A stretch of 64,000 bases of DNA from Gordonia lacunae (GCF_002149015.1 NZ_NGFO01000002.1:1-64000); one strand, 5' to 3'. Shown: positions 6,675 through 12,800, counted from the first letter of the stretch. Made by a program: numbers and translations. The notes: a model not told the origin generated them from the sequence alone.

Positions 6675-7817
6675 TCAGACGGCGAAGGCCGCCTCGACCG
6701 TGGCCTCGTCGAGTCCGTAATCGGAGAGCTGATAACGGTGCTGGGGCTTGCGTGCGCCCGACTGGCTCTCCTCGTCGAGGGCCGTGACCGCGGCCCGCGC
6801 CGCCTCCGACATCGGGGTGTCCAGCGCGGCGTAGACGCGCTCGACGGTGTCCATCGGGTCCGACCGCAGGTCGGTGAACTCGATGTCGAGGAACTGCGCC
6901 GGGTCATAGCGCTTGCGCGCCGCCGAGAACTCCCGCAGACCGCGCGACCACAACTCGAGCTGGTCCTGGCCGACCTGTGCGCCGGTGAACGTCGTCGACC
7001 ACCCCGGGGTGGCGTGCTCGGCCAGGCTGCACATCGACGCGATGAGCGTGGTGGGCGGCCGGTGGGTCTGGATCACCAGGGCATCCGGGTACGCCGCCAT
7101 GAGCGCATCGAGGGCGAACAGGTGGCTGGGGTTCTTCAGAACCCAGCGTTTCCCGGGATCGTTGAGGCCGATCAGCTGGAGATTCTTGCGATGCCGGAGA
7201 TAGGCCGGCGTCCAGTCCTGGCGGCTGAGCCACTGCGAATAGGTCGGGACGTGCGCCAGCGATTCGTACGAGATCGACATGACGCTCTGCCGGAGCAGCT
7301 GCCAGCACTCCTCGACCTCACCCGCGTCCATGTAGTGCAGCCCCATGAACTCGGGGTTCTCGACGTGGTGCTGCTCGAAACCGGCTTGGATCTGCTGGTA
7401 GACCGGGTTGTCGGGCCAGGTGTCGCGGGGCGGCCGCGGTTGCGGGAACTCCGCGAGCCACATCTCGACGCCCTGATGCGCGGGATCGGCGGCGAGCAAC
7501 CGGTGCAGCGCCGTCGTTCCCGTACGGGGCAGACCGGTCACGAAGATCGGCCGCGTCACCTCGACATCGGCGTACCCGGGGTTCGCCTTCCACGATGCCT
7601 CGCTGAGCAGCCGGGCGACCAACGCCCCCTTGAGGAAGAAGCGGAACATCTTGCTGCCCATCTCGGTCAGTCCCGCCTCGGACCGGTACGACTCGAGCAG
7701 GATGCCCAGAGGCTCCAGGTAGTCGGTGCCCCCGAAGTCGTCGAGGCCGGTCGCGCGAGTCGCCGAGGAATGCAGGTCCTCGATGGTGCCGACGTCGGTA
7801 CGTGCCGCACTAGTCAT
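6675..7817 (-). CDS. sulfotransferase-family protein
   Basis: 380 residues. The PAPS-binding 5'-phosphosulfate loop is clear at TGLPRTGTT (94-102), followed by the usual helix ALHRLLAADP; downstream HxP-type and GKRWVLKNPSH segments match the sulfotransferase_3 family. Such enzymes transfer sulfate from PAPS to hydroxyls of small molecules or sterols. I chose the ATG at 7817, preceded by GGTGAAT and overlapping the end of the SDR gene by eight bases; a GTG at 7826 is the alternative. It closes an operon that starts with hsaA, an unusual position. Possible roles are sulfation of a steroid or a lipid, or only fold-level similarity. Confidence 0.8.
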   Translation of the reverse strand: MTSAARTDVGTIEDLHSSATRATGLDDFGGTDYLEPLGILLESYRSEAGLTEMGSKMFRFFLKGALVARLLSEASWKANPGYADVEVTRPIFVTGLPRTGTTALHRLLAADPAHQGVEMWLAEFPQPRPPRDTWPDNPVYQQIQAGFEQHHVENPEFMGLHYMDAGEVEECWQLLRQSVMSISYESLAHVPTYSQWLSRQDWTPAYLRHRKNLQLIGLNDPGKRWVLKNPSHLFALDALMAAYPDALVIQTHRPPTTLIASMCSLAEHATPGWSTTFTGAQVGQDQLELWSRGLREFSAARKRYDPAQFLDIEFTDLRSDPMDTVERVYAALDTPMSEAARAAVTALDEESQSGARKPQHRYQLSDYGLDEATVEAAFAV

Positions 7818-8601
7818 GGTATTCACCGCAATTCACGTCCAGGGTGTGTCCGGTGATGGCACGCGCCATCGGGGAGGCGAGGAACACGACGGCGTCGGCG
7901 ATCTCGTCCGGCTCCGGCAATCGCTTGAGGTCGGACTTCGAGGCCGTCTGTTGGTAGACGTCGTCGGGTGAGATCCCGTACTTCTTGGCGACCTCGCCGA
8001 AGTACCACTTCAGCTGGTCATCCCAGATGTAACCCGGTGCGACCGAGTTGATGCGAATCCCCTTGTCGCCGAGCTCGGAAGCCAGCGACTGCGACATCGC
8101 CAGCAGCGCCGACTTCGCGATCTTGTAACTGCCGTATCGGGGTTCGGAGTGCCGGATGACCATCGAGTTGATGTTCACGATCGAACCGTCGGCCTCGGCC
8201 AGCGCCGCGGTGAACGCGCGGATGACCCGCAACGTCCCCAGCACGGTGACGTCGATACTGCTCGCTATCTGGTCGAAGTCGGTGCGCGACAACGGCTTCA
8301 TCGACGGGAGTGCGAAGGCGTTGTTGACCAGCACATCGGCTCGGCCGAACTCGGCGACGGCGGTGGCGACCAGGTTGTCGACGGCGGCGTCATCGGTGAT
8401 GTCGGCCGGGACGACGAGACTGGTCCCGCCGGCGGCGTCGATCTCGGCGGCGACCTCCTTCAGCCGTGATTCCGTGCGGGCGGCGAGGACGACCCGCGCG
8501 CCCTCCGCGGCCGCACGAAGGCAGATCGACCGCCCCAGTCCCGGACCGACTCCCGACACCACGACGACCTTGTCGGCCAGTAGGCCCCCCGGCACGCTCA
8601 T
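7810..8601 (-). CDS. short-chain dehydrogenase/reductase
   Basis: 263 residues, a classical SDR. The nucleotide-binding glycine motif is SGVGPGLG (16-23), the NNA motif is at 93-95, and the catalytic residues are Ser146 and Tyr159-x3-Lys163. Arg42 after the second strand favours NADP(H), although this is a weak indicator. Its start overlaps the stop of the preceding DUF gene (ATGA), and its 3' end overlaps the sulfotransferase, so the three are probably translated together. An alcohol/ketone oxidoreductase acting on a steroid or its breakdown product is the simplest reading; the substrate is unknown. Confidence 0.85.
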   Translation of the reverse strand: MSVPGGLLADKVVVVSGVGPGLGRSICLRAAAEGARVVLAARTESRLKEVAAEIDAAGGTSLVVPADITDDAAVDNLVATAVAEFGRADVLVNNAFALPSMKPLSRTDFDQIASSIDVTVLGTLRVIRAFTAALAEADGSIVNINSMVIRHSEPRYGSYKIAKSALLAMSQSLASELGDKGIRINSVAPGYIWDDQLKWYFGEVAKKYGISPDDVYQQTASKSDLKRLPEPDEIADAVVFLASPMARAITGHTLDVNCGEYHD

Positions 8602-11446: not shown

Positions 11447-11615
11447 CCCTTCGTGACGCCCTCCGCAAGCTCCGGGCTCCTCAGGGGGCAGGGGATGCGC
11501 CCTCCCGCCCGTTGAGGAGCGAGCTTGCGAGCCTCTGTCTTTGCTCCCTGAGGAGCGAGCTTGCGAGCCTCTGTCTTTGCTCCCTGAGGAGCGAGCTTGC
11601 GAGCGTCACGAAGGG
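11447..11615. repeat. repeat element inside the hsaA-hsaC operon (copy 2), with 36-bp tandem units
   Basis: Perfect 13-bp inverted repeats bound it: CCCTTCGTGACGC at 11447-11459 and GCGTCACGAAGGG at 11603-11615, the latter touching the hsaA stop codon. Inside are a near-exact inverted copy of the 1169 repeat unit (around 11457-11490) and a tandem array with a 36-base period starting at 11513, 11549 and 11585 (TGAGGAGCGAGCTTGCGAGC plus CTCTGTCTTTGCTCCC). It lies within a transcription unit, so it may form a strong mRNA hairpin that changes the hsaA to hsaC expression ratio. There are no spacers of a CRISPR type. Confidence 0.85.
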
Positions 11616-12800
11616 TCACACCATCGTGTCGCCGATGGGAATCCCGAACTCGCCGTTGCCGAATGCGACGTAGGCGCGCTCCGGGTCGTTCGCGGCGTGC
11701 ACACGGCCGGCGTGGGCATCGCGCCAGAAGCGCTGGATCGGTGTCCCGTTCTCCAGGGCGTGGGCACCCGAGTTCTCGAAGAGCCGATCGATGGCGGCGA
11801 TCGCACGTCCGGTCGCACGCACCTGGTCACGTCGTGCGGACAGGCGCAGCTCCATGGGGATCTCCTCGCCGGCGAGGATGAGGTCGTACTCGGCCTGCAG
11901 ATTGCCCGACAGCTGACGCCAGGCGGCGTCGATGTCGCTGGCGGCCTCGGCGATCCGGACCTTCGCGAACGGATCCTCCTTGGCCTTCTCGCCCGCGTAC
12001 GCCGCCCGCACCCGCTTGCCCTGGTGCTCGACGTGGGCGCGGTAGGCGCCGTACGCCATGCCGACGATCGGCGTCGCGATGGTGCTGGGATGAATGGTGC
12101 CCCAGGGCATCTTGTAGACCGGCGCGGTGTTCCGCTCCAGGCCCGGACTCTGACCCATCGACATCGTGCGCATGCTGAGCATGCGGTGGCGGGGCACGAA
12201 CACATCCTTGACCTCGATCGTGTTCGACCCGGTGCCCCGCAGTCCGACGACGTTCCACACGTCCTTGATCGTGTAGTCCTCGCGCGGGATCAGGAAGCTG
12301 ACGAAGTCGACGGGCTTGCCGTTCTTGATGACCGGACCCCCGACAAAGACCCAGTCAGCAGTCTCGCACCCCGACGACCACGCCCACGAACCATTGACCT
12401 TGTAGCCGCCGTCGACGACCTCACCCATGCCCATCGGCGCGTACGACGACGAGATGCGGACGTTGGTGTCCGAACCCCACACGTCTTCCTGGGCCTGCTG
12501 GTCGAACAGCGCGAGGTGCCAGTTGTGCACGCCGATGATGCCGGAGACCCACCCGGTGGAACCGCACGCCGACGCGATACGACGCACCGCCTCGTAGAAG
12601 GTGACCGGGTCGACCTCGTAGCCACCCCATTGCTCGGGCTGCAACAGCCTGAAGAAGCCGGCGGTCTCGAGGCTCGACACGGTCTCGTCGGGGATGCGGC
12701 GCAGATCCTCGGTCGACTGCGCACGCTGCTCGAGTTCCGGGAGCAGGACGTTGATCTTCTCCAGGACCTGCTCGGCGGCTTCGCTCCGTTGTGCTGGCAT
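11616..12800 (-). CDS. hsaA: HsaA, flavin-dependent 3-HSA monooxygenase oxygenase subunit
   Basis: 394 residues, the usual HsaA length. It has the acyl-CoA dehydrogenase fold used by group D two-component monooxygenases: an N-terminal helical part, then GWVSGIIGVHNWHLALFD, the middle strand domain ending DVWNVVGLRGTGSNTIEV, and the C-terminal GTPIQRFWRDAHAGRVHAA segment that is diagnostic for HsaA/HpaB-like enzymes. It hydroxylates 3-HSA to the catechol 3,4-DHSA with reduced flavin from HsaB. AGGAG precedes the ATG. A KstR-like box sits 69 bases upstream, so steroid induction by KstR release is expected. First gene of the minus-strand operon. Confidence 0.9.
   Translation of the reverse strand: MPAQRSEAAEQVLEKINVLLPELEQRAQSTEDLRRIPDETVSSLETAGFFRLLQPEQWGGYEVDPVTFYEAVRRIASACGSTGWVSGIIGVHNWHLALFDQQAQEDVWGSDTNVRISSSYAPMGMGEVVDGGYKVNGSWAWSSGCETADWVFVGGPVIKNGKPVDFVSFLIPREDYTIKDVWNVVGLRGTGSNTIEVKDVFVPRHRMLSMRTMSMGQSPGLERNTAPVYKMPWGTIHPSTIATPIVGMAYGAYRAHVEHQGKRVRAAYAGEKAKEDPFAKVRIAEAASDIDAAWRQLSGNLQAEYDLILAGEEIPMELRLSARRDQVRATGRAIAAIDRLFENSGAHALENGTPIQRFWRDAHAGRVHAANDPERAYVAFGNGEFGIPIGDTMV

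Follow-up and report, generated by a model that had tools for sequence, protein, structure and literature searches.

Three genes fused to the 3' end of an hsaACB operon in Gordonia lacunae raise the question of what a DUF1214-like protein (DUF), an SDR oxidoreductase and a sulfotransferase (STF) contribute to a steroid-degradation operon from which hsaD is missing. The locus was analysed within a stretch of 64,000 nucleotides (GCF_002149015.1, NZ_NGFO01000002.1:1-64000, here called the window), alongside a survey of 111 genomes of the family and a comparison of 80 named loci. The three genes (hereafter the trio) were identified as the already known KstR-regulon module Rv3531c-Rv3530c-Rv3529c, and their arrangement behind hsaACB is real and lineage-wide. 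With regard to function, gene content and context suggest, with about even confidence, a KstR-controlled module for PAPS-dependent sulfation, the core of which would be formed by STF and DUF and which would have been placed behind hsaACB in Gordonia and Williamsia.

Organization of the operon

The original prediction had described hsaA, hsaC and hsaB followed by DUF1214-like, SDR and sulfotransferase genes, and all six were recovered on the minus strand with the coordinates given below.

13027..14265, plus strand: kshA (3-ketosteroid 9alpha-hydroxylase oxygenase), divergent from hsaA; PF19298 KshA_C, E 1.5e-85
12962..12973, kshA/hsaA intergenic region: second KstR box (GAAACGTGTTCT)
12870..12881, kshA/hsaA intergenic region: KstR box, perfect AGAACACGTTCT
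11616..12800, minus strand: hsaA; NF045629, 703 bits, cut-off 450
11513..11604: perfect tandem repeat, 36-bp x 2.6, inside the hsaA-hsaC gap
10491..11402, minus strand: hsaC; NF045631, 557 bits, cut-off 450; start codon read from the sequence
9872..10489, minus strand: hsaB; NF045630, 302 bits, cut-off 230; reading frame extends back to an in-frame ATG at 10519
8598..9875, minus strand: DUF1214-like gene, Rv3531c orthologue; two-domain beta-rich protein that pairs with STF
7810..8601, minus strand: SDR oxidoreductase, Rv3530c orthologue; NF005909, 404 bits, cut-off 258; PF13561/PF00106
6675..7817, minus strand: Sulfotransfer_3 sulfotransferase, orthologue of M. tuberculosis Stf1/Rv3529c; PF13469, E 5.3e-59
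1832..6000, plus strand: ECH and three acyl-CoA dehydrogenase-like genes (profile matches, synteny), between STF and the probable off-window cysD-cysNC block

In the profile search HsaA, HsaC and HsaB all exceeded the curated cut-offs of their NCBIfam equivalogs, and the three genes are genuine equivalogs, under KstR, of those in the canonical hsaADCB operon, from which the Gordonia operon differs by the lack of hsaD (unlinked throughout Gordonia) and by the three genes added at its 3' end. The hsaC stop codon is separated from the hsaB start codon by 1 bp (TGA-g-ATG), hsaB and DUF as well as DUF and SDR share an ATGA overlap, and SDR and STF overlap by 8 bp (ATGACTAG), with the STF start set at the ATG at 7817 and a GTG at 7826 being a possible alternative. 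These junctions bear out the view that hsaB, DUF, SDR and STF are translated as one unit. No terminator-like site was found from hsaA through STF; the tight unit nevertheless comprises hsaC-hsaB-DUF-SDR-STF, as the hsaA-hsaC spacing amounts to ~213 bp and holds the tandem repeat, which was found nowhere else in the window and in none of the loci retrieved. Directly downstream of STF a TMEM175-like potassium-channel gene (6007-6645) is located, which is kept at this position in many Gordonia.

Control by KstR

Upstream of hsaA, the hsaA/kshA intergenic region holds two KstR boxes. Among the hsa-linked loci a predicted KstR site, ranking among the top two, was identified in this intergenic region in 34/34 cases. 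Likewise, each of the 11 standalone trios that were scanned (Rhodococcus, Aldersonia, Antrihabitans and N. cyriacigeorgica) possesses a box 53-104 bp upstream of DUF which is the top-ranked one at its locus. Directly upstream of the cysNC-linked Nocardia trios no strong KstR box was found; cysD-cysNC-DUF-SDR-STF of Nocardia is preceded by a degenerate KstR-like site (TCTGAAACAGGTTCTT) ~3 kb upstream of DUF, which is the best site of the locus in only some species. For mycobacteria, in vitro binding of KstR to the Rv3531c/Rv3532 promoter motif was reported, as was the 6-fold derepression of MSMEG_5932 (M. smegmatis) in a kstR mutant (PMC1995591). The trio belongs to the M. tuberculosis KstR regulon. 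Of its members only Rv3531c, and neither Rv3530c nor Rv3529c, is listed among the genes with a predicted requirement on cholesterol (compilation PMC6429209).

These data bear on the idea that the trio is a passenger, i.e., a chance neighbour of hsaACB with no steroid-related role, for which it may be argued that Nocardia and Rhodococcus carry the trio away from their hsa genes. The KstR boxes upstream of standalone trios and the published binding and derepression data already make this explanation unlikely and, taken together with the co-occurrence of DUF and hsaA across genomes described below, it is considered highly improbable. Within the window, a further perfect KstR palindrome (28404-28415) lies upstream of hsaE (27547-28332, minus strand) and hsaG/hsaF.

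Distribution and known relatives

The order hsaACB-DUF-SDR-STF was found in 24/25 named Gordonia loci (the exception being a 3-kb contig), in 9/9 Williamsia-type loci and in the single Jongsikchunia locus (1/1), and with this near-universal occurrence the arrangement is not due to chance. One Williamsia-type assignment concerns the record "Kitasatospora arboriphila NRRL B-24581" (L124), which groups with Williamsia by gene order and DUF tree and is probably mislabelled. The trio as such is no innovation of this operon. It is an older, independently conserved module that is also found on its own, with no hsa gene located within 9 kb of it in Nocardia and Rhodococcus. That it might be unique to the operon was therefore ruled out by the same layout or trio in other genera. 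In the DUF tree, several deep nodes of which are weakly supported, the Nocardia group falls inside the hsa-linked sequences.

In M. tuberculosis the same three genes, Rv3531c-Rv3530c-Rv3529c (Stf1), stand in the same order, are KstR-controlled and lie near kshA and hsaEFG. The mycobacterial trio has its own KstR promoter beside hsaEGF/kshA, whereas that of Gordonia and Williamsia is fused behind hsaACB. Two of the loci compared (L063 and L188) show the order hsaE-hsaG-hsaF ... DUF-SDR-STF, kshA and encode an STF 88-89% identical to M. tuberculosis Stf1; their gene order matches that of the Rv3536c-Rv3526 region.

Across the 111 genomes, DUF was identified in 78, STF in 79 and hsaA in 86. Conservation of the trio away from hsa genes had been named as a finding that would speak against a link of the two; it holds for the immediate neighbourhood in Rhodococcus and Nocardia, but no genome was found to possess DUF without hsaA, DUF being present in 78/86 hsaA-positive versus 0/25 hsaA-negative genomes (Fisher 3e-18, not corrected for phylogeny). 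As hsaA-positive relatives without the trio exist, namely G004, G011 and the genus g45, whose representative shows the canonical hsaA-D-C-B order, DUF-SDR-STF is accessory rather than an obligate step of ring degradation. In one genome (G076; L064, L189) DUF lies ~2 Mb from SDR-STF, with a KstR-like site at DUF and an adjoining cysNC at SDR-STF.

An accessory distribution would also fit a detoxification of the phenol and catechol intermediates 3-HSA and 3,4-DHSA by sulfation, hence a spill-over conjugation and not a pathway step, and it is consistent with this that the trio is translationally coupled to hsaC and hsaB, whose products act on those phenols. However, the trio is unlinked to hsaABC in most genera and such a function has no obvious place for the SDR and DUF genes, so that this explanation appears quite unlikely.

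The sulfotransferase, its DUF partner and the SDR

STF passes the Sulfotransfer_3 profile PF13469 with 200 bits (cut-off 27) and is 65% identical over 376 aa to PDB 2zq5, which is M. tuberculosis Stf1 (Rv3529c). Among 105 aligned STF sequences, M. tuberculosis Stf1 included, the active-site residues R101, G103-T105, K231, H255-R256 and S264 are invariant, whereby both the 5'-phosphosulfate loop (RTGTT) and the 3'-phosphate residues (R256, S264) are conserved. For the SDR, residues S146, Y159 and K163 are invariant among 155 aligned homologues.

Sequence similarity lends the DUF1214 label little weight, as the match to Pfam DUF1214 (E 0.0024, 18.8 bits) stays below the gathering score of 25, whereas a paralogue scores 34. 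The label is supported by the predicted fold. The protein matches PDB 6ans with E 3.9e-42, and its AF2 model (pLDDT 83) gave Z scores of 35.9 to 6ans, 13.6 to 3u07 and 13.0 to 3vb9; for the DUF1254/1214 proteins VPA0106 and VPA0735 the value is 13. VPA0106, VPA0735 and 6ans, with which DUF has its fold in common (Z 13-36), possess no assigned function; the DUF subfamily described here is instead paired with sulfotransferases. As a clue to mechanism the DUF structure was set aside, fold searches having returned only proteins of unknown function and low-Z beta-sandwich matches.

The pairing extends far beyond the operon. STF adjoins DUF in 39/41 paralogous DUF loci of actinomycetes, and of the 27 PF13469 genes in three mycobacterial genomes 22 lie next to a DUF gene, against an expectation of ~0.1 per genome for random placement, as tested in two of the three. 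The same holds for 5/5 Sulfotransfer_3 genes of the Gordonia genomes G000, G004 and G006. This near-constant association of the DUF family with Sulfotransfer_3 genes is new here; in the literature searched, which rarely mentions DUF1214 or DUF1254, no report of DUF1214 and a sulfotransferase together was found. For the DUF family, which reaches up to ~10 copies in one mycobacterial genome, this pairing is the first functional handle. In five genera and in paralogous pairs DUF and STF are directly adjacent with no SDR between them, which rules out the SDR as a member of the conserved core and, given the near-constant pairing, identifies STF and DUF as the functional core. A second pair of this kind is present in the G. 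lacunae genome (L170; G000:C34:15849-17986), with no steroid genes of the query set nearby.

As paralogous pairs reside outside hsa clusters, the DUF-STF pair itself is not steroid-specific. This agrees with the idea that the product formed by the trio in the presence of cholesterol is a sulfated signal molecule or lipid of the cell envelope, for which a terpenoid, polyketide or glycolipid would serve as acceptor rather than a steroid intermediate of catabolism. Envelope metabolites are substrates of mycobacterial sulfotransferases, Stf0 among them (PMC3141025), and some hsa-positive genomes do without the trio. Set against this are the tight tie to the presence of hsaA, the position in the hsa operon and the KstR boxes, and an envelope product is consequently seen as a doubtful, though the foremost, alternative. 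The near-constant pairing and the many invariant polar residues of DUF would likewise suit a deoxygenation of unusual sterol hydroxyls, in which the alcohol becomes a leaving group through sulfation, the sulfate is then eliminated or displaced by DUF, and the SDR completes the reaction; as the only proteins with a fold like that of DUF have no known function, the probability of this scheme is rated as low.

Linkage to PAPS supply

A sulfation module as favoured here depends on PAPS, and the association of the trio with PAPS-supply genes is likewise new here. The cysNC gene, which encodes the large subunit of ATP sulfurylase together with APS kinase, is located directly upstream of DUF on the same strand in 34/34 Nocardia loci; in L098 the two genes share 4 bp, and cysD precedes cysNC. 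A divergent cysNC was identified in 7/8 Rhodococcus loci (the eighth being a 7-kb contig) as well as in N. cyriacigeorgica and Antrihabitans; at the R. wratislaviensis locus L157 it is accompanied by cysD and by genes for an IclR-type regulator and a CysQ-like phosphatase. The distance between DUF and cysNC, or a lone APS kinase gene, is 8.9-19.5 kb in 18 Gordonia genomes. The genome studied here carries cysD, cysNC and the CysQ-like gene on contig C5, which ends 1.3 kb from cysNC; when aligned to the relative L195, this contig end and the window start come to lie 11 bp apart, and hence the module is probably followed, in the same orientation, by cysD-cysNC-CysQ-like. The CysQ-like proteins score below their curated cut-off. 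Since the genome G011 retains this cysNC with no DUF gene, the PAPS link is strong but not strict.

The original prediction had envisaged sulfation or desulfation-linked chemistry on a steroid. Of these, sulfation is backed by the linked PAPS-supply genes and by the invariant residues of the PAPS site, while desulfation found no support.

Proposed reaction sequence

For the steroid acceptor, the order of steps and the role of DUF we infer the following sequence. The linked cysD-cysNC would supply PAPS, from which STF would move the sulfo group onto the hydroxyl of an acceptor, and the CysQ-like phosphatase would remove PAP. The acceptor would be a lipophilic compound that arises from sterol degradation and probably derives from the steroid. 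DUF would act as a dedicated partner of STF, which either binds and presents the acceptor or acts next on the sulfate ester, and the SDR would contribute an optional step, preparing or processing the acceptor alcohol. By linking the trio to PAPS synthesis a specific prediction is obtained, namely that cells on sterols should form a sulfated metabolite. More tentatively, it is conceivable that in mycolic-acid bacteria, M. tuberculosis included, a metabolite derived from the steroid is sulfated during cholesterol catabolism in a PAPS-dependent reaction not described before, which STF and the DUF1214-like protein would catalyse as a two-component enzyme with its own PAPS supply. If this holds true, Sulfotransfer_3 enzymes in general would have a partner in the DUF1214-like family.

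The missing hsaD and a second steroid cluster

The operon was confirmed to lack hsaD, no such gene being located between hsaA and hsaC. The only hsaD of the window had been placed 27 kb away, and an HsaD-like gene was indeed found there, which is however probably the wrong gene.

39427..40338, minus strand: HsaD-like hydrolase of the second steroid cluster; 250 bits, HsaD equivalog cut-off 400

A counterpart of similar score exists in only a few of the 12 Gordonia relatives searched. Common to 12/12 of them is one HsaD-like gene of 257-277 bits outside the hsaACB operon, the equivalent of which in the G. lacunae genome lies on another contig (G000:C34:242360-243208; 265 bits). The window and C34 copies and their Gordonia counterparts all score below the curated HsaD cut-off of 400 bits. 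The C34 gene, being common to all 12 relatives, is the likelier core hsaD, and the window copy, accordingly less likely to be the missing one, is probably not the partner of the hsaACB operon. It belongs to a second, paralogous steroid-type cluster (39427-55441) with HsaD-, KstD-, HsaC-, HsaA-, KshA- and KshB-like genes, the substrate of which may differ, as its HsaA- and HsaD-like members score below the equivalog cut-offs. This cluster also carries two Baeyer-Villiger-type monooxygenases, SDRs and a LipP1-like esterase.
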